Source: Nitrospirota bacterium
GTDB lineage: Bacteria; Nitrospirota; Nitrospiria; Nitrospirales; UBA8639
Length of the DNA: 12,322 bases
Assembly (NCBI GenBank): GCA_029881175.1
Contig: JAOUNC010000032.1
Location: 1 to 12,322, forward strand
Reading direction: 5' to 3'
A model generated the notes under the pieces. The model searched no databases. It had not been told where the DNA came from and worked only from the letters and a program-made list of their open reading frames with translations. Of this stretch, positions 1 to 12,322 are shown piece by piece (the first letter of the stretch is position 1; every line of letters starts with the position of its first letter). The translations under genes were made by a program, and so were the position numbers.

Positions 1-2
1 GA

Positions 3-829
3 CCCATCACTAAAACAGTGACCGATGCGGCTATTATGTTGAATGCGATTGTTGGCCATGATCCCTTGGATTCGACTTCAACGAATCGGGATGTGCCTGA
101 TTTCACAAAATCCACGAAAAAGAAAGATATTAAAAAGCTGATTGTGGGTGTGCCGCGTGAATATTTTGCTGAAGGGCTTGACCCTGAAGTGGAGGAAAAA
201 ATTCAAGACGCAATCCAGGTATTAGAAGGCATTGGCGGAAAGATCCAGGAAGTGACCTTGCCCTCTACGGAACGTGCGATTGCCACCTATTATCTCATTG
301 CCACGGCCGAAGCCAGTTCGAACTTAGCGCGGTATGATGGGGTCAAGTTCGGGTTCCGGGCTAAAGAATCCAAAGAGCTGGCAGAGATGTATCACCGCAC
401 CAGGTCGCAAGGTTTTGCCCGGAAGTCAAACGTCGCATCATGTTGGGGACCTATGCCCTCAGCGCCGGGTATTATGAAGCTTTTTACGGAAAAGCCCAAA
501 TGGTCCGCACGATGATTCAGCGGGATTTTGATGCCGTTTTTCAAGATGTGGACCTATTAGTCAGCCCCGTCATGCCGACTCCTGCGTTTCAACTTGGTGA
601 GCGGTTGGAAGATCCCCTGCAAATGTATTTGTCAGATATTTACACGATTCCCGCGAGTTTGGCGGGGTTACCAGCCATTTCTTTTCCCTGTGGGTTGAGT
701 TCAAAAGGCTTGCCAATCGGCTTACAATTGATGGGGCGACCATTCGAAGAAACGACAGTGCTTCGGGCAGCCTATGCCTACGAGCAAGCCACGGACTGGC
801 GACGTAAACGACCGGTGATTCGGTCTTGA
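3..829 (+). CDS. gatA: Glutamyl-tRNA(Gln)/aspartyl-tRNA(Asn) amidotransferase subunit A, 3' part, frameshifted
   Basis: GatA is the amidase subunit of the GatCAB complex. It releases ammonia from glutamine, which is used to convert Glu-tRNA(Gln) or Asp-tRNA(Asn) to the amidated form. The reading frame is already open at the window edge, so the 5' part with the Ser-cisSer-Lys catalytic triad is not visible. Visible family blocks are [40 protein letters not shown], then in another frame [27 protein letters not shown], and [17 protein letters not shown] through [15 protein letters not shown]. The frame changes at about 416-420: one G appears lost from the run after TTTT (411-422), where GGC CCG GAA GTC AAA would restore the family's [14 protein letters not shown]. 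Without that base, translation ends at 515. The rest of the gene is clean and gatB is intact 0.8 kb downstream, so a sequencing or assembly error is as likely as a real mutation. Confidence 0.9.
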
Positions 830-843
830 AAGGATAACGAGGT

Positions 844-1260
844 ATGGTGGATTTAGCCGTGATGATCATTGCTGTGGCTGTGGTCGTATTAGTAGGCTAT
901 ATGGTTCCGACGATCCTGCAAGTCAAGCGAACGGTTGGGCAATCGGAACGACTGCTTATTCGGTTGAACCATGAACTGCCAGGGTTGTTAAAGGAAGTAA
1001 AGGGCACCAATGACAATATTCGGGCGTTAACGGATGAACTCCGTGGGGGAGTTGATCGGGCGACCATATTTTTGAATGCGGTGGGCGAGGTGGGACATAC
1101 GGTGCATCAAGTCCATCAAGCGGTGCGTGGGAAAGGGGGGACAGTCATGATTGGCTTGACCAGCCTCCTTGCAGGTATTAAGGCTGCCACCTCAACGGTG
1201 AAGCATCGAGTTCATAAAGAATCAAAAGAAAAACAAGGAGGATCTGACTATGGCGAATAA
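844..1260 (+). CDS. DUF948 (YtxG-like) membrane-anchored protein
   Basis: This 138-residue protein has one hydrophobic segment at about residues 4-25, followed by a hydrophilic, probably helical region with regularly spaced Leu/Val (ERLLIRLNHELPGLLKEVK, then NIRALTDELRGGVDRAT). The C-terminus is Lys-rich. This is the layout of DUF948 proteins such as B. subtilis YtxG: a single N-terminal anchor with a cytoplasmic coiled-coil tail. Molecular function is unknown. The ATG is preceded by AAAGGA at about 830-835. The gene starts 14 bases after gatA and its last 11 bases overlap the following YtxH-like gene, so the two are probably translationally coupled. The neighbouring YtxH gene supports the family call, because ytxG and ytxH are adjacent in Bacillus. 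Confidence 0.75.
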   Translation: MVDLAVMIIAVAVVVLVGYMVPTILQVKRTVGQSERLLIRLNHELPGLLKEVKGTNDNIRALTDELRGGVDRATIFLNAVGEVGHTVHQVHQAVRGKGGTVMIGLTSLLAGIKAATSTVKHRVHKESKEKQGGSDYGE

Positions 1261-1561
1261 TTCAGGGGCTTCGGCGGGTTCAGTCGCATTAGCATTTTTA
1301 AGCGGAGCGTTGTTGGGAGCCGTGACTGCGGTGATGTTGGCACCTCAACCTGGTCGAGAATCGCGGGAACGTGTCACCGGCTATGCTCGGCGGACGGGTG
1401 AAGATTTGCTGGATTTGAAAGACCGCGCCACGGATACGGTCGAAGAAGTCGTGGGTCGTGGTCGAGAATTAGTGGATGAAATCTCTTGTGCTGTGCGAGA
1501 AGCCTTGGACGCTGGACGAGATGCCATGCGTCGAGAGCGAGAGATGAATTCACTCGACTAG
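1250..1561 (+). CDS. YtxH-domain protein
   Basis: This 103-residue protein has a Gly/Ala-rich hydrophobic segment at residues 11-31 (GSVALAFLSGALLGAVTAVM), immediately followed by APQPGRESRERV. That pattern, a transmembrane helix ending in a short APxxGxxxR turn, is the YtxH signature. The remaining 65 residues are charged and helical, with repeated Asp/Glu/Arg heptad-like spacing. YtxH proteins are small membrane or envelope proteins, linked to general stress in Bacillus; their mechanism is unknown. A strong Shine-Dalgarno AAGGAGG lies at 1235-1241, 8 bases before the ATG and inside the end of the upstream DUF948 gene. This fixes the start and indicates coupled translation. The gene sits between gatA and gatB. 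Confidence 0.8.
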   Translation: MANNSGASAGSVALAFLSGALLGAVTAVMLAPQPGRESRERVTGYARRTGEDLLDLKDRATDTVEEVVGRGRELVDEISCAVREALDAGRDAMRREREMNSLD

Positions 1562-1603
1562 TGGTGTTGACTCGTTGAACGAAGAGGAACGGTTTACGAC
1601 TCT

Positions 1604-3034
1604 ATGGCCTATGAACCCGTTATTGGAGTTGAAGTGCATGCCCAACTCCGCACTCAAACCAAGCTCTTTTGTGGATGTGCGACTTCCTTTGGCCTTCCTC
1701 CCAATACGCAAGTCTGCCCGGTGTGTTTAGGGTTGCCAGGAAGTTTGCCTGTTTTGAATCAACGAGCGGTTGAAATGGCCGTTCGCACAGGCTTAGCGCT
1801 CAATTGTGATATGACGCTGTCTAGTCAATTTGCTCGAAAAAACTATTTTTATCCGGATCTGCCCAAAGGCTATCAAATCTCCCAGTATGATTTGCCCATT
1901 TGTGGTCCGGGGTGGTTAGAGATTTCAGTGAACGGGAAGACGAAACGTGTTCGTATTATGCGAGCGCATTTGGAGGAAGATGCTGGAAAAAATGTTCATG
2001 ATGAAGGGGCCGATGGCAGTCATGTGGATTTGAATCGGGCTGGAACCCCCTTGTTGGAGATTGTCACAGAACCCGACCTGTTTTCTTCAGAGGAAGTTGA
2101 TGCCTATCTCAAAACGTTACGGGATCTCTTGGTCTATTTAGATGTCTGCGACGGAAATATGGAGCAGGGCAGTTTTCGGTGTGAGCCGAATGTTTCCATT
2201 CGGCCTCAAGGGCAAACCAAGTTGGGAACAAAAGTGGAATTGAAAAATATCAATTCATTTCGATATGCCAAAGATGCATTAGACTATGAGGTTAGTCGTC
2301 AAGCAGAGGTGCTGAGTGACGGCGGAGTGGTTCAACAGGAGACGCGGCTGTGGGATGTCCATAAAGGCCAGACGGCTGTGATGCGCAGCAAAGAGGGCGC
2401 CCACGATTATCGCTACTTCCCTGATCCGGATCTCTTGCCGGTCATCATTGATCCTGCGTGGATGGAAGAACTCCGTGGCACGATTCCTGAGTTGCCTGCC
2501 GCACGGGTTCAGCGATTTATGCAGGCCTATCAATTAACGGAATATGATGCGACTATTTTGACGGACTCTAAGGGATTGGCCGATTACTTTGAGTCGTGTG
2601 TGAAAGCGTTTCCTCACCCTAAAACGGTCAGTAATTGGGTGACGGGAGAGCTTCTTCGTGAACTCAATCTATCTGGTACAGAACCGGAATCCTCTCCTGT
2701 GTGCCCTGAACGATTAAGCGAATTATTACAACTCGTTGATTCGGGAACGGTGAGCTTAAAAGCGGCACGGGAGTTATTCCCAGAGCTCTATACAACAGGA
2801 AAGGCGCCGGCACAATTAGTCGAAGAGAAAGGCTTGCTCCAAGTATCTGACGAAGGGGCGTTGACCGTCCTGATTGGGGAGGTGCTGGCTCAATACCCGG
2901 CCCAAGTGGAACAATTTCGCGGAGGCAAGGAGGCGGTGTTAGGCTTTTTGGTGGGGCAAGTGATGAAGGCTTCAAAAGGAACCGCCAATCCCGGCAAAGT
3001 GAATGAGTTATTGAAACGTTCACTTTCATCTTGA
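1604..3034 (+). CDS. gatB: Aspartyl/glutamyl-tRNA(Asn/Gln) amidotransferase subunit B
   Basis: GatB binds the misacylated tRNA, activates its side-chain carboxylate with ATP, and receives ammonia from GatA through a tunnel. The protein is full length at 476 residues. The N-terminal block [18 protein letters not shown] carries C23 and C25, and CPVCLGLPG carries C38 and C41; these four cysteines form the zinc site. Further conserved blocks are [70 protein letters not shown] and the [12 protein letters not shown] signature. The C-terminal 140 residues form the helical YqeY-like tail domain that contacts tRNA, ending [17 protein letters not shown] purine-rich RBS (AGAGGAA, about 1583-1589) lies rather far, 14 bases, from the ATG. 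No alternative start is better. gatC is not in the window. Confidence 0.97.
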
Positions 3035-3039
3035 TCTAA

Positions 3040-4392
<1,353 letters not shown>

Positions 4393-4395
4393 CCG

Positions 4396-4749
4396 GTGCG
4401 GCCCAATAATAAAAAACATGTCTCACAAGGATTTTGGGGGGATCTCTTTGATCGCCTTCCATTTGTCGCGGTCTTTTTAATCATGAGTGTGTTGACTGGG
4501 ATGATGTTTTTTAATGCTGATGGCTTGCCACTCTATTTTCAGGTGCGAGAGAACCGGCAACAGTTGGTCCAACAGATTCAGCAATTGGAATACATCAATG
4601 CCTCCATGCAAGAGGATATTATCCGTATTCAACGCGATCCTCAGCGTTTAGAAGAATTAGCCCGCAATCGATTAGGCATGGTCCGTCCTGGCGAAAAGGT
4701 ATTTCAGTTTGTGGAGCCGGCTCCTTCCTCCGTGACGGCTAGGCGCTAA
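4396..4749 (+). CDS. FtsB/DivIC-family septum formation initiator
   Basis: FtsB/DivIC proteins are bitopic inner-membrane proteins that form the FtsQBL (DivIB-DivIC-FtsL) complex, which activates septal peptidoglycan synthesis. This 117-residue protein has a short basic N-terminus, one transmembrane helix at about residues 22-39 and a coiled coil at about 47-80 (VRENRQQLVQQIQQLEYIN). The family hallmark ARNRLGMVRPGEKVFQF follows at 89-105. The start is GTG at 4396, only 3 bases after the eno stop, with no recognisable Shine-Dalgarno. The next in-frame Met lies inside the transmembrane segment, so GTG with translational coupling to eno is the best choice. It could be called ftsB or divIC; sequence alone does not settle that. 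Confidence 0.87.
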   Translation: MRPNNKKHVSQGFWGDLFDRLPFVAVFLIMSVLTGMMFFNADGLPLYFQVRENRQQLVQQIQQLEYINASMQEDIIRIQRDPQRLEELARNRLGMVRPGEKVFQFVEPAPSSVTARR

Positions 4750-4798
4750 GCACCACATCTTGCCGTCCCTCTTCTTTTATACACCGTGCGTTTCTTGT

Positions 4799-4818
4799 AG
4801 GATGATGATTATCGTCCT
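4799..4818 (+). other. Hairpin in the ftsB-era gap
   Basis: Positions 4799-4806 and 4811-4818 form an 8-bp stem in RNA (AGGAUGAU with AUCGUCCU, one U-G wobble) around a 4-base loop, 18 bases before the era start codon. No U-tract follows, so it does not look like an intrinsic terminator. It may be a processing or translation-control structure, or chance. Confidence 0.3.
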
Positions 4819-4836
4819 CCCATAGGCTTCCCAACT

Positions 4837-5733
4837 ATGAAATCTGGTCAACTCGCCATCCTTGGTCGTCCGAATGTGGGCAAGTCCACCTTGCTCAATG
4901 CCTTGGTGCGTGAAAAAATTGCGATTGTTTCTGATAAACCCCAGACGACCAGAATGCCGATTTTGGGTGTGGGTCATTATCCTGAAGGACAACTGGTGCT
5001 GGTGGACACGCCAGGTCTCCATACGCCACATCATCGACTCAACGCACAAATGGTACAAGCTGCGTTAGGAACCTTGATGGATTCTGATGTGGTCTATGTC
5101 CTCCTGGATAGTCAGGTGCCTCCGGGACCGGGGGATCAATTTGTGATTGATCAGGTGACGCAGGCGAATAAAGATCGACCCTTTCGAGCGGTTTTTTTGT
5201 TATTGACCAAATCGGATGTGGTGGCCAAGTCCCGCTTGCTCCCACTAATTGAGCAATGCCGAGCGCGATACCCATGGACGGAAATTGTCCCCATTTCCGC
5301 AAAAACCGGGCTGAATGTGCCTCGACTGGTTGAGTTGACGTTTGCCTGTTTGGAAGATGCTTCAACCTTACAGTATGAGGAAGATTTTTTAACTTCTCAA
5401 TCGATGCGGCAAATGGCAGGGGAGATTATCCGTGAGAAGGTCTTGTCCTCGACGCGTGCGGAATTGCCGTATGCTGTAGGAGTCTTCATTGAGGAGTTTC
5501 AAGAAACCAAAAAACTGACCACTATTCACGCCGTGATTTTGGTCGATAAGGCCAGTCAAAAGGGGATTGTGATTGGTAAGGGTGGACTGCGACTCAAGGA
5601 TGTTGGGCAGCAGGCTCGAGAAGACATGGAACGACTCTTTGGCATGAAAATTTTCCTCAAAATGTGGGTCAAGGTTCAAGAAGGATGGCGGGATGACCCC
5701 AGAATCCTCACGGACTTAGGGTATGGTCTATAA
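4837..5733 (+). CDS. era: GTPase Era
   Basis: Era is an essential GTPase that binds the 3' end of 16S rRNA and helps mature the 30S subunit. The 298-residue protein has the TrmE-Era GTPase domain at residues 1-170 and a C-terminal KH RNA-binding domain at about 205-290. Visible motifs are G1 GRPNVGKST (10-18), the switch I segment KPQTTR (34-39), G3 DTPG (57-60), G4 as TKSD (124-127) and G5 ISAKTG (153-158). The KH loop is VIGKGG (245-250), followed by KDVGQQAREDMERLFG. The G4 motif is unusual because the first residue is Thr instead of Asn. The ATG at 4837 has only a weak AGG upstream. era and recO are adjacent, as in many bacteria. Confidence 0.96.
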   Translation: MKSGQLAILGRPNVGKSTLLNALVREKIAIVSDKPQTTRMPILGVGHYPEGQLVLVDTPGLHTPHHRLNAQMVQAALGTLMDSDVVYVLLDSQVPPGPGDQFVIDQVTQANKDRPFRAVFLLLTKSDVVAKSRLLPLIEQCRARYPWTEIVPISAKTGLNVPRLVELTFACLEDASTLQYEEDFLTSQSMRQMAGEIIREKVLSSTRAELPYAVGVFIEEFQETKKLTTIHAVILVDKASQKGIVIGKGGLRLKDVGQQAREDMERLFGMKIFLKMWVKVQEGWRDDPRILTDLGYGL

Positions 5734-5781
5734 AGCTATGCGATCTCAGGATGATTCTGGTCATCTTATGAGAGCGTTACG

Positions 5782-6531
5782 ATGCCGTTAGTACGAACCC
5801 GAGGCATCATTATTCGAAGCCAGCGATGGGGTGATGCGGATCGAATTGTCACCGTCTATTCCCCCAATCTTGGGAAAATTCGAGGTGTGGCGCGTGGCGC
5901 CCGCCGCATGAAGACTCGATTCGGTGGGGTGCTTGAACCATTTGGCCTCGTCGAGTTGACCCTCTTTCAAAAAACACCAGAAGCCTTAGGGCAGATCAGC
6001 CAGATTGATCTGGTTGCGAGCTTTTCAGCCATTCGTGAAAATTTAACCGTCATGACTGCGGCTGCCAGGATGGTACGAATGGTCGAGGCGATCACCGTGG
6101 ATCGTGACCCAAATTATGAAATGTTTGTGGCCCTGGTTCATGGGCTGGAATCGTTGTCTCCGGAGACAGACGTAGCGCTCACGACGCTGTTGTTTCAAAT
6201 TCACATACTTGGGCATACGGGGTTTCGTCCGCAACTGGATTCATGTACAGAATGTGGGCAGTCAGCGCGGCAACGCACGTTGCAGTGGTTTTCACCGAGG
6301 CTCGGAGGGATGGTGTGTGAGGAATGCGGCCAGCGAGGCGTAGGGCGCATGCTGGCGTTATCCAGGGGGAGCGTGGCCTTTATTGAGCAAGCGCGACGCC
6401 TATCACTACCACAGCTCACTCGCTTAAAGGCCATGGGGGCTGTCCGGCTTGAGGTTGAATCAGCCATGGACGCCTATTTTTATGCGGTCGTCGGAAAATC
6501 ACTCCCAACCTTTGAACAATGGGTTTCCTAG
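5782..6531 (+). CDS. recO: DNA repair protein RecO
   Basis: RecO works with RecR, often as RecFOR, to displace SSB, load RecA onto single-stranded gaps and anneal complementary strands. The 249-residue length is normal. The N-terminal OB-fold (about residues 1-80) shows TRGIIIRSQRWGDADRIVT and the RecO-typical IRGVARGARRMKTRFGGVLEPF, rich in DNA-binding basic residues. The helical C-terminal part has a zinc site: C155 and C158 (CTEC) with C179 and C182 (CEEC), flanking a block ending FSPRLGGMVC. The ATG at 5782 lies 48 bases after era; another ATG at 5768 is out of frame. The order era-recO is common, and the spacing fits one transcript. Confidence 0.95.
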   Translation: MPLVRTRGIIIRSQRWGDADRIVTVYSPNLGKIRGVARGARRMKTRFGGVLEPFGLVELTLFQKTPEALGQISQIDLVASFSAIRENLTVMTAAARMVRMVEAITVDRDPNYEMFVALVHGLESLSPETDVALTTLLFQIHILGHTGFRPQLDSCTECGQSARQRTLQWFSPRLGGMVCEECGQRGVGRMLALSRGSVAFIEQARRLSLPQLTRLKAMGAVRLEVESAMDAYFYAVVGKSLPTFEQWVS

Positions 6532-6558
6532 GGTGAGATCGAAGAAGGATAACTGGTG

Positions 6559-6906
6559 ATGACTGAATCGTTACTGCAGCCTACGGACATGGAATGGCTC
6601 GACAAGGGAGTCTTGAGTATCACATGGAGTGATAATCATAAAGGCGTCTATCCCGTGCGGTATCTGCGCCAACATTGTCCTTGTGCTGGTTGTGTTGATG
6701 AATGGACGGGAGAATTGCGCCTGAAGCCAGATTCGGTCCCGCTCCTCATCTTGTTAGAAGATATTGAGCCCGTCGGTCGTTATGCGTTTCGCATCAAATG
6801 GAGTGACGGGCATGACACCGGAATCTACTCCTACACCGCCCTTCGTCGCATGTGCCAATGCGATATCTGCGTGCCTAACAAACCCAAAAAGAAACAGCTG
6901 CTATAA
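6559..6906 (+). CDS. DUF971 / gamma-butyrobetaine hydroxylase-like N-terminal domain protein
   Basis: This is a small stand-alone protein of 115 residues from the ATG, or 116 from the adjacent GTG at 6556. Two tandem beta modules are visible, each with a W-S-D turn (TWSDNHKGVYPVRYLR and KWSDGHDTGIYSYTALR), the fold of the zinc-binding N-terminal domain of gamma-butyrobetaine hydroxylase. Likely zinc ligands are the three cysteines of HCPCAGCVDEWTG (about residues 40-50) and the His of SDGHDTG. A second cysteine cluster, CQCDIC, follows near residue 99. Bacterial DUF971 proteins have been linked to Fe-S cluster handling, but no function can be assigned here. The purine-rich AGAAGG at 6543-6548 serves either start, and ATG is preferred. 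The gene follows recO by 27 bases and closes the plus-strand block. Confidence 0.8.
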   Translation: MTESLLQPTDMEWLDKGVLSITWSDNHKGVYPVRYLRQHCPCAGCVDEWTGELRLKPDSVPLLILLEDIEPVGRYAFRIKWSDGHDTGIYSYTALRRMCQCDICVPNKPKKKQLL

Positions 6907-6991
6907 TTCCTCTCGATTTTTTTCTTCCAGTCAGTTCCCAAGCCCTGAGCTTCAGTAAGGCAATGGAATTTGCGAATTCTTACTATGGCTG

Positions 6992-7013
6992 AAGGCCAAG
7001 AACCTTATTTTTT
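6992..7013 (+). terminator. Weak candidate terminator after the DUF971 gene
   Basis: AAGG at 6992-6995 can pair with CCTT at 7003-7006, directly followed by A and six T (7008-7013). Upstream, CTTCAGTAAG (6950-6959) can pair with CTTAC (6979-6983) and TGAAG (6990-6994) in a longer, bulged structure. The T-tract fits an intrinsic terminator for the plus-strand operon, but the short stem makes it weak. Confidence 0.3.
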
Positions 7014-7052
7014 GTTGAGAAGATGAAAGAAGAGTTCAGGCGATGGTATTAA

Positions 7053-7580
7053 TTAGCGGACGAGCGCGTCATTGGAAGAGAGAGAGACCGGGCGAGTCGT
7101 GGAGAATTGTTGAATGGCTTGGGTGGCTTTGGAGACATAAAAGGCATATTGGGGTTCTGGGTAATTTTCTACGATGGTCTGGAATGTGCGAAGGGCGGTA
7201 TGAAAATCAGCTGCTTGATTCGCGACTTCTCCAATCCGAATGGAGCAGGCAGCTGCCATGGCCCGAGGATCAACCGCCAGTCGTGAATTCCTGGTGCTGG
7301 AGAGGTTCTTGAGGAAGGTTGGAACCGGGATGGGTGAATCATTCAGTGATATGGGTGTCGGCGCAGAATGTAACACCTCAAGGTGTAATTGCATGTCTTC
7401 TGTGTCTGACCCTGCCACGCATTCGTTGTAGGTATCCCAAAGGTTGATGAATGCGTGATTCTCAAGGGCCAATTCTCCAGGGTTTGTAGCCTGGAAGCTT
7501 TGACATCCCACCATGATGAGGCTGAGAGCCAACAAGCTAAGGAGAGTCATACCTTTTTTTATGATTGGGGGATGGGGCAT
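7053..7580 (-). CDS. Predicted small lipoprotein of unknown function
   Basis: I do not recognise this 175-residue protein. It has a basic n-region (PPIIKKG), a hydrophobic core (about residues 12-24) and a lipobox-like MVGC with the modifiable Cys at residue 26. This predicts a lipoprotein processed by signal peptidase II. The mature part has a likely disordered Ser/Pro-rich stretch at about residues 75-95. An Ala-rich helical C-terminal half follows (AAACSIRIGEVANQAADF, then HTALRTFQTIVENYPEP), resembling a single tetratricopeptide-like helical pair. Two starts are possible: Met1 with no clear RBS, or Met11 preceded by AAAAAAGG very close to the codon. Met11 would give a shorter n-region. 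The gene is convergent with the DUF971 gene and has its own candidate promoter, so it is probably a separate transcript. Confidence 0.7.
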   Translation of the reverse strand: MPHPPIIKKGMTLLSLLALSLIMVGCQSFQATNPGELALENHAFINLWDTYNECVAGSDTEDMQLHLEVLHSAPTPISLNDSPIPVPTFLKNLSSTRNSRLAVDPRAMAAACSIRIGEVANQAADFHTALRTFQTIVENYPEPQYAFYVSKATQAIQQFSTTRPVSLSSNDALVR

Positions 7581-7809
7581 GGTTTTACACGATTCTGTTT
7601 TTATCTAATTTAAGAAGATATAGCAAATACCATACTCAACGTGAATTGTTACAAATCGATAAGAATTAGGCGGGTTTTTATTCAATGCCATCGCAAAAAC
7701 CTGTCTTTGAAGTCTGTTCTATGCCACACAGTGTGTGACTTATGTATCATTAGTAAGCAATAAATACTAGGTAGAAAGCTAATGAAATTTGCAGTGGGGG
7801 CTTTAAAAT
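7581..7809. other. Intergenic region upstream of the lipoprotein gene
   Basis: This 229-base AT-rich stretch lies between the N-half helicase gene and the lipoprotein gene, both on the minus strand. It carries a candidate minus-strand promoter (7617-7645). It also has an inverted repeat GGTTTTT/AAAAACC (7673-7679 and 7695-7701) and a 13-base palindrome CACACAGTGTGTG (7725-7737). No convincing terminator for the helicase operon and no further gene are visible. Confidence 0.5.
7617..7645 (-). promoter_or_regulatory. Candidate extended -10 promoter for the lipoprotein gene
   Basis: On the minus strand TTCACG (7645-7640) is followed after 17 bases by TATATC (7622-7617). A TGC lies directly before the -10 hexamer, giving an extended -10 element. 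Each hexamer matches the sigma-70 consensus at 4 of 6 positions. Transcription would start near 7610, about 30 bases before the first start codon. Prediction by eye only. Confidence 0.35.
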
Positions 7810-8865
7810 CTAACGAAAAGGTTTAACTTCATATTCATTGAATAAACGCTTGGTTTCTGGATGAAAGCGATACCCTTTTTTTTGTTGAATGTCGCGGGCT
7901 TCGAAGAGGGGCACGAGTTGGCCTGTTGGGTGAAGATAGAGTCCACGCAGCGGAACTGATCGTTTCGTGTGGCGGATAAGCCGGCATGGTGTTTCGCGAA
8001 TGGAGGTGAGCCATTCGGCAAGCTCTTGAGGGTTTCCGATAGAGGCGGAGAGGAGGAGAAGGCGGGTTTGAGAGGGACAGAGAATGAGCGTTTCCTCCCA
8101 GACGACGCCACGTTCAGGATCGGCCAAATATTGCGATTCATCAAGAATCACTAAGCCTAGGGTATGAAGCCGAAGGTCGATTTCTCCACTGGCGGCATCA
8201 TAGAGCACGTTTCGCAAAATTTCTGTGGTCATAATTAAAAGTGGCGCGTGGATGTTGTCCCGGCGATCTCCTGTGAGAATCCCTACCAGGTCCGGTCCAA
8301 AGCGATGTGAAAATTCCATGTATTTCGTGTTGGAAAGGGCTTTGAGCGGTGACGTATAAATAACTGTTTGATTGGCAGCCATGGCTTGCTTGATGGCTTC
8401 GATGGCGACGAAGGTTTTGCCGCTTCCTGTTGGGACACTGACAATGACGTCTGCATGGGCAAGGGCCTCTACGGCTTCCCGTTGCCATTCATCGGGCACG
8501 AAGGGCATGGGGCTTGGTACGCCGATCCCCTCCAGAAGTTCCGGGAGTTGAATCGGGGGAGAAGAAGGGCCTTGGGTGTGGTGTGATGTTCGAGCAGTCG
8601 GTTTGCTGTAAAAAGGAGACGGTGATTCACCGGGTGAAGGAGGTGGTGGGGTGGGTGAATTGACCACTGATTCCCTTGTGGGAAGAGAGAGATTGGCTAG
8701 GCTGGTCGCCAAGGCCATTTTATGTTCTTGAGGGAGACCCAGCATACATTCAATCAGGCGGCGTTTTCCCAGTCGGAAATGGCGAGAGATCCTGCCCTTG
8801 GCTAATTGATGCAGATATTTTATGGGCAGCCGTTGGAGTTCGCGATTGAGATCGTCGTCGTTCAT
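7810..8865 (-). CDS. Split Ski2-like DEAD/DEAH helicase, N-terminal half (RecA1 domain)
   Basis: This 351-residue protein carries only the first RecA-like domain of a superfamily 2 helicase. Residues 1-45 are basic and helical (LQRLPIKYLHQLAKG, then GKRRLIECML), reminiscent of SAP or Rho-N nucleic-acid binding motifs. A Pro/Ser-rich linker follows at about 70-105. The helicase domain shows a Q-motif-like PDEWQREAVEAL (124-135), Walker A VPTGSGKT (144-151, K150), motif Ia TSPLKALSNTKY, motif Ib LTGD, motif II DESQ (242-245, where relatives have DExH) and motif III SAS (273-275). DPERGVVWEE after motif II is typical of Ski2/Mtr4/HelY relatives. The protein ends at residue 351, in the linker where RecA2 would begin. 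An AAAGGA Shine-Dalgarno 5 bases before the ATG shows independent translation. The missing half is the gene upstream in the same operon. Confidence 0.9.
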   Translation of the reverse strand: MNDDDLNRELQRLPIKYLHQLAKGRISRHFRLGKRRLIECMLGLPQEHKMALATSLANLSLPTRESVVNSPTPPPPSPGESPSPFYSKPTARTSHHTQGPSSPPIQLPELLEGIGVPSPMPFVPDEWQREAVEALAHADVIVSVPTGSGKTFVAIEAIKQAMAANQTVIYTSPLKALSNTKYMEFSHRFGPDLVGILTGDRRDNIHAPLLIMTTEILRNVLYDAASGEIDLRLHTLGLVILDESQYLADPERGVVWEETLILCPSQTRLLLLSASIGNPQELAEWLTSIRETPCRLIRHTKRSVPLRGLYLHPTGQLVPLFEARDIQQKKGYRFHPETKRLFNEYEVKPFR

Positions 8866-8870
8866 GGGTG

Positions 8871-8876
8871 TCCTTT
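8871..8876 (-). promoter_or_regulatory. Shine-Dalgarno of the N-half helicase gene
   Basis: AAAGGA on the minus strand lies 5 bases before the ATG at 8865, inside the 23-base gap after the stop of the C-half gene. It shows that the N-half is a separately initiated protein, not the tail of a read-through product. Confidence 0.7.
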
Positions 8877-8888
8877 TTTACAGAAGGG

Positions 8889-10748
8889 CTAGGGTAGCTC
8901 AGCCAAGACTTCCCGCCGCATGTTGCCCATCGCCAGGTGTGCCGTATCGGCTAAGCCTGGATGTGTGCCTTTGAGCGTATGGATTTGGGACAGAAATTCT
9001 AAGGTTCTCGCCAGCAATCGGTAGACGTCCCCTTCGGCCATTGAGGTTGATCGCACCAATGAGGCCCAATTGAGTTGTGGTTGGCCAATCCATTGTTCGG
9101 CTAAGGCCGCCACGTCCGAACGTAATAACGGAGGAGGTTCATAGGCTCTGAGTGAGTCCGCCACTTGGCGAACTTTTCCGAGCATGGAACTCAAACCAGA
9201 GGTGAGTCGCATATAGGAGCTTGGCCGATCGTCGTCATGGGCAATGCTGGCCATGACGCCGGCTAACATTTCAGGGGCAATGCCGGAAAAGGCGTCCATG
9301 CGAATGAGTTCAGTGATGAGCAGGGAATGATTGATGCGAATCATTCGTGCCCATTCCCCATCGGCGGTTAATTGAAAGCCGGCAGTGATATAGCCAAATT
9401 TATGTAAGACATCGGCCTTTTGTTGAAACCGATGCCAGAGACCATCGCGTAAGGCCTGAATCGTTTTCGTGACTTGCTGTTCTTTGAGTCGAAGTCGTGA
9501 GGCAAGAGAAAAATCTTTTTTGCAGGCGGTGTATGACGGACAAGACGGGCAAGAAAATTCCTCTGTTAAGACCTCGGATAACAGGGGATCGTCTGCCTCT
9601 GGGCTGGCTTCAAAAATAGGCACGGTGGGTGGATGCGCCGGTAATTGAGCCAGTGCCTGCTTGAACTGATGGAGGGTGGATGGCAGACACCAGGGCACCG
9701 TCCGTGTCGGGTGAAAGTCATAGACGTGATCATACACGTGCACGACCCGTTGAGCTTGGCATTCGCCAACGGTCCCTTTGCCATGGAGCACGGACAACAT
9801 CGGTGTGCCGGTTCCACGGCTTCGATACTGGCGAAGGATAATCGCGGGGCCTTTGGCCAACCCAATCAGCCGTCCTGGCGTCAGAAACGGCAAGCAGGCC
9901 GTGAGATAGGGGGAATCATTCGTGACGATTGGCCGACGGTGGGCTTTACGGCGGCGAGCCAGATCAAACACTTTCCATTGGGCCACCCAATCCGCGCATT
10001 CCCTCGGACCGTAGGGTTGTAATTGCTCGTGCAGGTCATCTAGGCGTTCTTGATGAACCGTGACGCGTTGATTGAGCTGAAACTGTGCAAAGCTTTTCGC
10101 AAGCAGCCCTTCTATTTGATCAACAGAATGGGCCCTCAGCAAGTTCAACACCATGGGATAGGAGATGACAAATTGGCTATCAATCGATTCTGGTTGGCCG
10201 GTGAGCCCTTTACCTAAAATATCCAGGTCGATGAACGGCGAAGGGGTGACGACCACAAAACCTACAAAGTCTTTCCCTCGACGGCCTCCGCGTCCGGCTA
10301 ATTGCTGAATTTCACTCACGGTCAAGTCGCAAAAATCCTGTGATTTGCGAACACTGGATTGGCTAATCACGACGGTGCGTGCTGGGAAATCAACACCAGC
10401 CGCGAGTGTGGTGGTGGCAAATACCGCATCCAACAGGCCCTGGCGCATGAGTTCTTCAATGGCCATTTTCCAGGAAGGCAGATGGCCGGCATGATGGGCA
10501 GCGACGCCATAGTCTTGGACGACAGGAATCAGGGGATGATTGGCAATGCTAGGAAAATCCTTGGCGAATTGGTCAAGAAACGTACGAATGGCTTCAGAAT
10601 GGGAGGCCGAGACACTGGCGGAGGTATTGATAAAGGCGTCGATCGCTTCGTCGCATCCGCGACGGGAAGTTAAAAACACAATGGCGGGGGTTAAATGATG
10701 TCGGCGAAGAATGTCGACGAGATCAATCGGATGAATTGCAGGTGGCAT
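8889..10748 (-). CDS. Split Ski2-like DEAD/DEAH helicase, C-terminal half (RecA2 plus DSHCT region)
   Basis: This 619-residue protein begins at the second RecA domain of a Ski2/Mtr4/HelY-type helicase and has no Walker A or DExx motif. Motif IV lies at 22-35 (AIVFLTSRRGCDEA), then GVAAHHAG (81-88), motif V TTTLAAGVDFPAR (112-124) and motif VI QLAGRGGRRG (149-158), which supplies the arginine finger. The middle holds the winged-helix and ratchet-like helical region. C400, C403 and C409 (CPSCPSYTAC) form a possible metal site in the position of a related Cys/His block in HelY-like proteins. The C-terminal part (about 455-610), with LLITELIRMDAFSGIAPE, resembles DSHCT. The ATG at 10748 has no clear RBS. 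The upstream frame stays open for 13 codons but has no start codon. It is first in the operon, so the two halves are in reversed order. Confidence 0.9.
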   Translation of the reverse strand: MPPAIHPIDLVDILRRHHLTPAIVFLTSRRGCDEAIDAFINTSASVSASHSEAIRTFLDQFAKDFPSIANHPLIPVVQDYGVAAHHAGHLPSWKMAIEELMRQGLLDAVFATTTLAAGVDFPARTVVISQSSVRKSQDFCDLTVSEIQQLAGRGGRRGKDFVGFVVVTPSPFIDLDILGKGLTGQPESIDSQFVISYPMVLNLLRAHSVDQIEGLLAKSFAQFQLNQRVTVHQERLDDLHEQLQPYGPRECADWVAQWKVFDLARRRKAHRRPIVTNDSPYLTACLPFLTPGRLIGLAKGPAIILRQYRSRGTGTPMLSVLHGKGTVGECQAQRVVHVYDHVYDFHPTRTVPWCLPSTLHQFKQALAQLPAHPPTVPIFEASPEADDPLLSEVLTEEFSCPSCPSYTACKKDFSLASRLRLKEQQVTKTIQALRDGLWHRFQQKADVLHKFGYITAGFQLTADGEWARMIRINHSLLITELIRMDAFSGIAPEMLAGVMASIAHDDDRPSSYMRLTSGLSSMLGKVRQVADSLRAYEPPPLLRSDVAALAEQWIGQPQLNWASLVRSTSMAEGDVYRLLARTLEFLSQIHTLKGTHPGLADTAHLAMGNMRREVLAELP

Positions 10749-10758
10749 AGAAGCTTCG

Positions 10759-10767
10759 ATTGTATCA
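10759..10767 (-). promoter_or_regulatory. Candidate extended -10 promoter for the split helicase operon
   Basis: The minus strand reads TGATACAAT, an extended -10 (TGn plus TACAAT, 5 of 6 matches to TATAAT). It ends 10 bases before the ATG at 10748. No good -35 is present. Transcription would start about 4 bases before the ATG, giving a nearly leaderless mRNA, which fits the absence of a Shine-Dalgarno. Confidence 0.3.
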
Positions 10768-10801
10768 GGAGTGGAAAGAGAAAAACACTAAGAATGCCTA
10801 T

Positions 10802-10927
10802 GTGAGCGAAACAACACAAAACGATGAGGAGGAAGTTAATGGGATTTTGAAGCCCGATTGCACGTGGCTCGCAGCGAAAACGCATTCATTGGAAAAACCA
10901 TTAAGCTTCGACCCAGCGGGCCGATAA
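10802..10927 (+). CDS. Possible small protein, 41 codons
   Basis: An open frame from GTG at 10802 to TAA at 10925-10927 would encode a 41-residue hydrophilic peptide beginning SETTQNDEEEVNGILKPD and ending LEKPLSFDPAGR. It stops 13 bases before the STAS gene, so it could be a short leader gene. The RBS is weak, and the frame stays open upstream to a TTG at 10760. I do not recognise it, and it may be chance. Confidence 0.2.
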   Translation: MSETTQNDEEEVNGILKPDCTWLAAKTHSLEKPLSFDPAGR

Positions 10928-10940
10928 GGTTCATAAGATT

Positions 10941-11273
10941 ATGGCAATTGATGTAATTGTACGAGGAAGTCAGGGAGCCACTGTGGTGGATTTCCATGGC
11001 CGGCTTGATATGCATTCCCGGTGGCATGTGAAAGCAATTATCAATCAATGCTGCCAGACAGAATTCGAACATCTCATTTTAAATCTCAAAGGGCTAACCT
11101 ATGTCGATAGTGCCGGATTGGGATTTTTAGTCATCTGCTCGCGACAATTTAAAGACCTGCAACGGCGGATTACCTGGATCGAACCACAAGGCTTTGTCGG
11201 CGACCTGGTCAAAAATTTACAACTTCATGACCTCATTGCCATTTGTCCCACCGAACAAGATGCCTTATCCTGA
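10941..11273 (+). CDS. STAS-domain protein (anti-sigma factor antagonist type)
   Basis: This 110-residue protein consists of a single STAS domain, the fold of SpoIIAA/RsbV-type anti-anti-sigma factors. The N-terminal strands (DVIVRGSQGATVVDFHGRLD) lead to the hallmark helix start YVDSAGLGFL. S57 is the serine that partner-switching kinases phosphorylate in this family. When unphosphorylated, such proteins bind an anti-sigma factor kinase and release the sigma factor. No kinase, phosphatase, sigma factor or transporter lies beside it here, so the partner is unknown; role in partner switching is inferred from the domain alone. AAGG at 10926-10929 lies 11 bases before the ATG. The gene is divergent from the helicase pair and convergent with the ClC gene. 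Confidence 0.88.
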   Translation: MAIDVIVRGSQGATVVDFHGRLDMHSRWHVKAIINQCCQTEFEHLILNLKGLTYVDSAGLGFLVICSRQFKDLQRRITWIEPQGFVGDLVKNLQLHDLIAICPTEQDALS

Positions 11274-11391
11274 GCTGCCTGTACCCTCAAGAGGAATCTT
11301 CGTGGGTGATTTCTAGGATTTTGTTGGTTAGTCCGGCGTTACTTGACCTCCAATCCAGAGGCTTCAGACTCGTAACGATTCTAACTCCTTC
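11274..11391. other. Convergent gap between the STAS and ClC genes
   Basis: In this 118-base gap I see only a short inverted repeat, CCTC-n7-GAGG (about 11347-11361), with no T-tract on either strand. No intrinsic terminator or gene can be supported. Confidence 0.4.
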
Positions 11392-12322
11392 TTACTTTCC
11401 CCCATCCTGGTCGGTTGTCTTTTTCGTTGCTTCAACAGTCTCTTGTTGCCATTCTCCAACTTCTTGATTGATGGGAGCCTGTAAGGCGGGGGCTTTTGTG
11501 TATTGCAGAAGTTGTGTGGGGATGGCACTCCGATGGCCAGAAATCAAGAAGGCGATGGTGCAATTCAATAGAAGGTAGGGTCCGCTTGCGATCCCAAAAA
11601 ATTCCAAGCCCAACAGGACGGCGGTGATGGGGGTATTGATGGCCCCGGCCAAGAGGCCTGTGAGGCCTAAGGCTGCAAACAGGCTGGGATCTTGTCCGAG
11701 GACCCAGCCGAGGGCTGACCCACTGGTGGCTCCAACAAAACAGATGGGTAAGACAATGCCTCCGCTCCCACCCATCTTCAGCGTCAAGGTGGTGGTCAGT
11801 ATTTTCCCAAGAATCAAAGCCCAAATAATCGTGCCTCCTTCTAGGGCTCGTTGAATCGTTTCTTTTCCTAAGCCCAGCACGTCTGGTGAAACAAGCCAGC
11901 CAATCCCCAGGAGCAGGCAGCCACCAATGGCCCCTTGAAGGGGAGGCGAAGCCGGCAAGTGGTACATGAGGCGCTTCCCGCCGTTGAGGCATTCCACAAA
12001 GACCATTGAGCTGAGACCAAAGATCACTCCACCTACTAATGTGTACATCAATAGTTTGGCATCGAAATTGGGAAAAGACGAGGCGACAAAATGCATGTCA
12101 GGCATTCCGAGAAATGAAGCCGTCAGATACCCCACCAGGGCCGCGACCACGGATGGGAAGAGAGCTTGATAGGCTAAGGATCCAACAAAGAGCGCTTCAA
12201 TGCCAAACAAGGCACCAGCCAAGGGAGCGCCAAAGACTGACGCAAAGCCTGCGCTTAAGCCGCAAATGACCAACGTCTTCCGATCATACAATTCACATTT
12301 CAAGATATCTGCGACAAAAGAA
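11392..12322 (-). CDS. ClC-family chloride channel/transporter, partial (N-terminus off window)
   Basis: ClC proteins are homodimeric membrane proteins that move chloride, either as channels or as Cl-/H+ antiporters. About 309 residues are visible and the frame is open through the window edge, so the internal TTG at 12303 is not the real start. The visible part is hydrophobic with many helices. It shows the family block CGLSAGFASVFGAPLAGALFGIEAL (usually with FNAPLAG), then LKMGGSGGIVLPICFVGATSG (usually GGxFAPxLxxG) and AGAINTPITAVLLGLEFFG. The GSGIP and GREGP motifs, with the gating glutamate, lie outside the window. No cytoplasmic CBS pair follows; the protein ends in a short charged tail. 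A ClC-type anion transporter is clear. Channel versus antiporter and ion preference cannot be decided. Confidence 0.88.
   Translation of the reverse strand, partial: SFVADILKCELYDRKTLVICGLSAGFASVFGAPLAGALFGIEALFVGSLAYQALFPSVVAALVGYLTASFLGMPDMHFVASSFPNFDAKLLMYTLVGGVIFGLSSMVFVECLNGGKRLMYHLPASPPLQGAIGGCLLLGIGWLVSPDVLGLGKETIQRALEGGTIIWALILGKILTTTLTLKMGGSGGIVLPICFVGATSGSALGWVLGQDPSLFAALGLTGLLAGAINTPITAVLLGLEFFGIASGPYLLLNCTIAFLISGHRSAIPTQLLQYTKAPALQAPINQEVGEWQQETVEATKKTTDQDGGK

Follow-up and report, generated by a model that had tools for sequence, protein, structure and literature searches.

A Ski2/Mtr4-like helicase divided between two genes in reversed order in Nitrospirales

A 12,322-nt stretch of a Nitrospirota metagenome-assembled genome (MAG; GenBank GCA_029881175.1, contig JAOUNC010000032.1, positions 1 to 12,322 of the forward strand; hereafter, the window) carries two neighbouring minus-strand genes that resemble the two halves of a single Ski2-like helicase, with the half that should come last transcribed first. 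Is this one enzyme whose parts have truly changed places, and if so, how widely is that order kept, how might the parts work and how did they come to lie this way round? We find that the split, reversed helicase is an old and widely kept arrangement in the order Nitrospirales, which comprises nitrite oxidisers and relatives.

One enzyme cut between its RecA domains

The first transcribed gene (8889..10748, minus strand; 619 residues), here the C-half, encodes RecA2 with motifs IV, V and VI, a winged helix/ratchet region, an arch with a beta-barrel and a CxxCx5C cluster, and DSHCT. The second (7810..8865, minus strand; 351 residues), the N-half, encodes an N-terminal extension of about 95 residues and then RecA1 with a Q-motif, Walker A, motif II (DESQ) and motif III, and it ends in the interdomain linker. 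The C-half stop codon (TAG) occupies 8889-8891 and the N-half ATG ends at 8865, leaving a 23-nt spacer (8866..8888, minus strand); the spacer is 22-23 nt in most loci of the same genus, and four loci read from family f2 have a 4-nt overlap. Together the products total 970 residues, encoded by two separate open reading frames (ORFs), here and at the linked loci that were read, rather than as the single polypeptide of Ski2/Mtr4-like helicases. The ORFs, coordinates, C-then-N order, spacing and combined length are as the first-pass annotation of this DNA, made from the letters alone, had given them. A scan for promoters and terminators returned nothing above chance level.

Pfam searches assign Helicase_C (E 6.7e-06) and DSHCT (E 4.1e-22; PF08148, 79.2 bits against a cut-off of 22.7) to the C-half and DEAD (E 9.3e-22) to the N-half. 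The N-half contains FVPDEWQ (Q-motif-like), SVPTGSGKT, DESQ and LLLSAS, giving it the Walker A, motif II and motif III of a RecA1 domain, and the C-half contains PAIVFLTSR, FATTTLAAGVDFPA and QLAGRGGRR, the motifs IV, V and VI of RecA2; the division of motifs and of DSHCT between the genes proposed at first sight is thus borne out. Walker A and motif III are each present in 61/61 distinct N-halves, and motif V and motif VI (QxxGRxGRR) in 62/62 distinct C-halves. Motif II reads DE[S/A]Q in all 61 distinct N-halves, in place of the DExH of Ski2/Mtr4-like helicases.

By both sequence and fold, the closest solved structures are those of the eukaryotic exosome helicases Mtr4/DOB1 and Ski2, which have RecA1, RecA2, a winged helix, an arch-like insertion and DSHCT in common with the split pair and, unlike it, are single chains; no exosome-like partner was identified for the pair, none having been sought. 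The C-half model (predicted local distance difference test, pLDDT, 86.6; predicted template modelling score, pTM, 0.69) aligns with Mtr4 from about residue 359 to its end at 1070 and with yeast Ski2 540-1284, and the N-half portion of a model of the read-through chain aligns with human SKI2 308-529 at 2.2 Å over 216 residues. Because these segments are complementary, both products are parts of one Mtr4/Ski2-like enzyme, cut in the RecA1-RecA2 linker. Strands at residues 293-342 of the C-half model lie between long helices and form the arch that separates Ski2/Mtr4-like enzymes from Hel308. Several full Mtr4 chains align about 590 residues of this model at a root-mean-square deviation of 8-16 Å, and so not as one rigid body; structure 6c90, which we take to lack the arch, aligns 411 residues at 2.7 Å. 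A Hel308 identity was rejected, since the NCBIfam Hel308 scores are 60.2 and 52.7 bits against a cut-off of 1200 and Mtr4/Ski2 outrank Hel308 by sequence and fold. Two larger alignments (A2 and A3) placed the N-halves wrongly, and no fold was computed from either.

The CxxCx5C cluster in the arch region (C-half residues 400-409, window 9522-9551) is kept in 62/62 distinct C-halves and is also visible in the consensus with undivided relatives; it may bind zinc or another metal.

Conservation, selection and descent

We pooled searches of 59 close relatives and 295 phylum genomes, two overlapping sets that together hold 132 genomes of the order. At least one half was found in 127 of the 132 (the window's own genome included), and both halves in 122 of those 127. 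Counting same-strand pairs whose match ends are no more than 300 nt apart, 113 of the 127 genomes have the C-half immediately upstream of the N-half, and an adjacent C-then-N pair is present in 16 genomes listed as one contig. The N-half comes first in none of 117 same-contig pairs, and no undivided copy was found in the searched genomes of the order. Because the order is reversed and recurs across genomes, a frameshift or a gene split by a stop codon was rejected.

Strong C-half matches are limited to the window's order among the 295 phylum genomes, and the DSHCT family occurs in 95 of these: 94 of the order, the window's own among them, and one other (G225). Database relatives of the C-half include, among the matches listed, proteins of Candidatus Nitrospira neomarina, Ca. 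Nitronereus thalassa, Ca. Nitrospira salsa and Ca. Nitrospira bockiana, and the order is called Nitrospirales here on the basis of such names. The best 120 are all half-length (519-624 aa), and 114 of these 120 start with MPPxIHP or MAPxIHP; the named ones are called hypothetical protein, helicase-related protein, superfamily II RNA helicase or HelY.

An assembly error or a decaying pseudogene might be suspected, as the window's genome is a 509-contig MAG, 82% complete, with one copy of each half and a single other N-half match, a remote one at 29 bits. The recurrence of the same order overall and in the one-contig genomes refutes the former, and purifying selection the latter. Across computable pairs, the C-half has a ratio of non-synonymous to synonymous substitution rates (dN/dS) of 0.033-0.066 and the N-half one of 0.052-0.148. 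The closest pairs (dS 0.16-0.18) give 0.056 (C) and 0.122 (N), with 0.034 and 0.064 at dS 0.28-0.31 and 0.033 and 0.057 at dS 0.53-0.74; pairs at greater distance come close to saturation, and no value could be obtained from two comparisons. Both halves are under strong purifying selection.

Undivided relatives were collected with N-half residues 95-351 as the query and whole-enzyme length as a requirement, keeping the best 120 of 7281 matches. Those listed span about 600-970 aa, most have DEAD and DSHCT, and the named ones are mostly from Desulfobacterota/Deltaproteobacteria and Acidobacteria. These bacterial Ski2-like/HelY-type proteins (P0121-P0240) have the same domains and the same linker site as the split pair; over the first BLAST segments, identity between four query pairs and their ten best undivided relatives is 45-55% for the N-halves and 29-46% for the C-halves. 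They differ in being one polypeptide with N before C, as seen in 119/119 of these best matches (one shorter than 640 aa was excluded), and in motif II, which is DEAH/DEVH in 99 of the 120 (the other 21 were unmatched by the pattern) against DE[S/A]Q in the split enzyme. From R.VPL to motif IV, the N-half tail and C-half head add up to 74-84 residues (54 pairs); in undivided proteins the median is 67 (31-100; 107 of 119, where the pattern matched). The cut is therefore seamless, with no overlap between the halves, and this comparison agrees with the structural alignments in placing the break in the linker between the RecA domains, where it had been predicted. Because 14 of the 119 undivided proteins already hold MPP at the position of the C-half start, the codon from which the C-half now starts may go back to a methionine inside the undivided protein.

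Taken together, the predominance of C-first pairs, the selection on both halves and the uniform N-C order of undivided relatives uphold the claim of a true order change rather than a frameshift. The proposed search of related genomes showed the C-half/N-half order to be conserved, with no undivided homologue found in the order, and none of the outcomes that the first-pass annotation had set against its claim (a misassembly, an intact copy elsewhere with relaxed selection on the halves, or an undivided gene at the locus in relatives) came out in the genomes searched.

Phylogenies point to a single event. The N-part tree held 16 split rows with 55 of 59 retained undivided rows and the G225 protein, and the joined N+C tree held 16 split and 26 undivided rows. 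Split rows fall on one side of one branch in each, with support of 90 in the N-part tree and 100 in the C-part tree by the Shimodaira-Hasegawa-like approximate likelihood ratio test (SH-aLRT) and 100/100 (bootstrap/SH-aLRT) in the joined tree; the C-part and joined trees carry a long-branch warning that leaves the sister group unsure. The same family groups appear in all three, with the joins between families resolved in part, and an enolase tree has the same family groups. With a single clade for each half and matching family groups in both, there was probably one old fission before the last common ancestor of Nitrospirales, followed by vertical descent.

The DSHCT protein of G225 (locus L096), the sole such match outside the order among the 295 genomes, is an undivided 746-aa helicase of the same class and another family, with DECH as motif II. 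It was rejected as an undivided copy of the split helicase, being 32% identical, on a very long branch and so of a different subfamily. CarB was dropped as a species marker, as the CarB of family f4 appears foreign: f4 carB (L131-L134) is about 42% identical to that of other families and 69% to one copy in G045, which suggests gene transfer or contamination.

Separate halves and a possible shared ATP site

In superfamily 2 (SF2) enzymes, ATP is bound by RecA1 and its hydrolysis is completed by motifs V and VI of RecA2, and the two domains are normally tethered in one chain. Either chain by itself would supply only half of the ATP site, and the two parts are both conserved, so a heterodimer is the economical reading. 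We consider with good confidence that a two-subunit motor with a shared ATP site best accounts for the pair. One subunit would contribute RecA1 with Walker A and motif II, the other RecA2, the arch and DSHCT with motifs IV-VI and the RNA path. Together they would form one heterodimer with the ATP site at their interface, act as an ATPase only once assembled, and translocate along RNA through a ring closed by the DSHCT/ratchet domains. By homology, the function would be that of an ATP-driven 3'-to-5' translocase or unwindase of RNA, possibly of ribonucleoprotein.

Family f4 bears directly on this reading, as its halves are unlinked and both kept. In G038 they are listed on different contigs, the C-half between a response-regulator gene and a thioredoxin-domain-like gene and the N-half adjoining a mannose-1-phosphate guanylyltransferase-like gene (names from reading the ORFs). 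The thioredoxin-like gene also adjoins the C-half in G041, and the guanylyltransferase-like gene the N-half; here both halves are on a single contig with a chimeric end, and 13.6 kb separates them by match ends. The halves of G044 and G047 are also on different contigs, the G044 C-half and the G047 N-half near contig ends. Adjacency is therefore dispensable, and f4 cannot make a fused product. By match ends the halves are likewise far apart on one contig in G227 (7.2 kb) and G232 (25 kb), so the halves in f4 and these two genomes would act in trans. Together with the conserved motifs on both chains, the unlinked f4 halves favour action in trans, and the heterodimer would be an obligate one.

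Halves are listed on different contigs in five genomes, the three f4 members and two others: G017, whose C-half contig also holds the first 112 N-half residues directly downstream and then ends, and G298, where both pieces are at contig ends. In G281 the halves are 409 nt apart by match ends and the ORFs only 49 nt. Two side observations may be added: sugar-nucleotide epimerase-like genes directly follow the C-half in L112/L113 (G232) and L110 (G193), and at L089:16668-17066 the contig ends in an assembly chimera, with the N-half present on both strands as a fold-back.

Such separation could also mean that the halves have separate jobs and form no joint motor, the C-half serving as an RNA-binding scaffold and the N-half as an ATP-binding switch or a partner of another protein. 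The genes lying apart in f4, G227 and G232 would fit this, as would G193, where the C-half alone was found, and the N-half's own extension in f1-f3. We nevertheless regard it as improbable: C-half motifs V and VI, with their known role in the ATP site, are as conserved as N-half Walker A, and both halves occur together in nearly all genomes, with four of the five one-half cases (G034, G046, G272 and G254, all except G193) at contig ends.

The extension itself (N-half residues 1-95; 8581..8865, minus strand) consists of predicted helices and then a low-complexity stretch, with the pattern LxxLPxxxLxxLARGR...RLGKxxLI. It was found in f1-f3 N-halves and is missing from the two f4 N-halves whose sequence was read throughout. 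With E values up to 5 allowed, Pfam gave no credible match in it, with one sub-threshold match to Lambda_CIII (E 0.098), and its likeness to small nucleic-acid-binding helical modules was judged by eye only.

Conversely, the ORFs might be joined at translation, by read-through or frameshift, into one permuted C-N protein, as the short gaps, the f2 overlaps and two loci (L021 and L063) with both ORFs in the same frame and a single stop between might suggest. This is very unlikely, since the relative frame is 0, 1 or 2 by locus, gaps vary between -4 and 195 nt, the linked loci that were read retain the stop codon of the C-half, and joining is impossible in f4.

Several observations weigh against the two-subunit motor. 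With DE[S/A]Q in place of DEAH, ATPase behaviour could differ. The AlphaFold model of the read-through chain is weak (pTM 0.50, pLDDT 72.9, 57 rows) and does not test the interface. G193 (99% complete, 30 contigs) is the one true exception: its C-half lies well within a contig of 320 kb, and a search with a closer query still found no N-half. Neither half was found in 5 of the 132 genomes, namely G002, G004, G014 and G054 (66-84% complete) and G150 (99% complete). Few neighbourhoods were compared, and among them no neighbour common across families points to a pathway.

We put forward more tentatively, as quite possible though short of probable, a fuller version of the two-subunit motor: an obligate, order-wide SF2 motor with its ATP site only at the interface of separate proteins, in which subunit assembly would be the on/off step. 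Its motif II would be a DExQ form peculiar to the clade, and the RecA1 subunit of three families would carry an added helical module at the N-terminus.

Origin, precedents and significance

Before the last common ancestor of Nitrospirales, one ancestral Ski2/Mtr4-like (HelY-type) helicase gene would have been severed in the stretch linking RecA1 to RecA2, its 3' half ending up upstream of its 5' half. Native start and native stop face each other and the cut is seamless, without overlap, so the layout fits the tandem duplication with reciprocal truncation that the first-pass annotation had proposed; we infer this origin, which is unproven. No relics of the lost pieces were found beside the halves among matches listed at E up to 0.1. 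Eight of 1375 matches (131 sequences with matches, among those listed) fell outside both halves, five being remote N-half matches in separately fetched loci and three the DSHCT part of L096; the input also included alignment rows treated as DNA. The further suggestion of an intermediate of circular permutation stands for the layout, which matches the duplication route, and fails in the strict sense: no fused C-N form occurs among the 120 listed C-half matches or the 119 undivided relatives checked, so that C-part before N-part in one chain is not seen and the reversal exists at gene level only.

Simple fission with dispersal of the halves, as in f4, and later re-association in reversed order would also lead here. 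Halves are separated in f4, a family whose branch is one of the order's deepest by helicase as well as by enolase, and in G227 and G232. That route requires a later chance adjacency on the same strand, and f4 is not shown to be basal; later separation in f4 would be equally easy. We regard fission with relocation as possible, on the doubtful side. Neither the enolase tree nor the helicase trees settle the deepest fork, and f4 as the ancestral state was not upheld.

Split SF2 helicases are already known. In Nanoarchaeota, a large helicase-related protein (NEQ 003-409; Nst 172-239) and reverse gyrase are split (PMC3655853); as far as the parts of that source consulted go, the likeness is that SF2 genes are cut in two within a lineage, and the differences are that these are other families, in reduced archaeal symbionts, with gene numbers far apart. 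In DISARM, DrmA/DrmB (YprA-like) have a helicase module in an adjacent gene and complex formation is shown (PMC12458937); the separate part is an OB-CON-DUF1998 module, and the portion consulted describes no cut between RecA domains. Some species make transhydrogenases from split subunits and another makes them as one permuted chain, for which permutation-by-duplication and fission-fusion models are given in the portion consulted (PMC3320104); this is a membrane enzyme with a fused permuted form, and no such form was seen for the helicase. Among the top-ranked results of searches in the open-licence PubMed Central (PMC) literature, we found no report of a two-gene Ski2-like helicase.

Elsewhere in the window, the reading frame of gatA (3-829, plus strand) is broken near 410-440, the 5' part staying in one frame to 515 and the 3' part in another from 440; this is possibly a sequencing error in the MAG or a real mutation.

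The arrangement resembles a stage of permutation by duplication preserved at the depth of an order. For annotation, each of the 120 listed C-half relatives is half an enzyme, whatever the name it carries. As a natural separation of RecA1 from RecA2 that is stable across the order, Nitrospira included, the split helicase lets the role of the tether be asked directly, and it also lets one ask whether motor activity is controlled by assembly.

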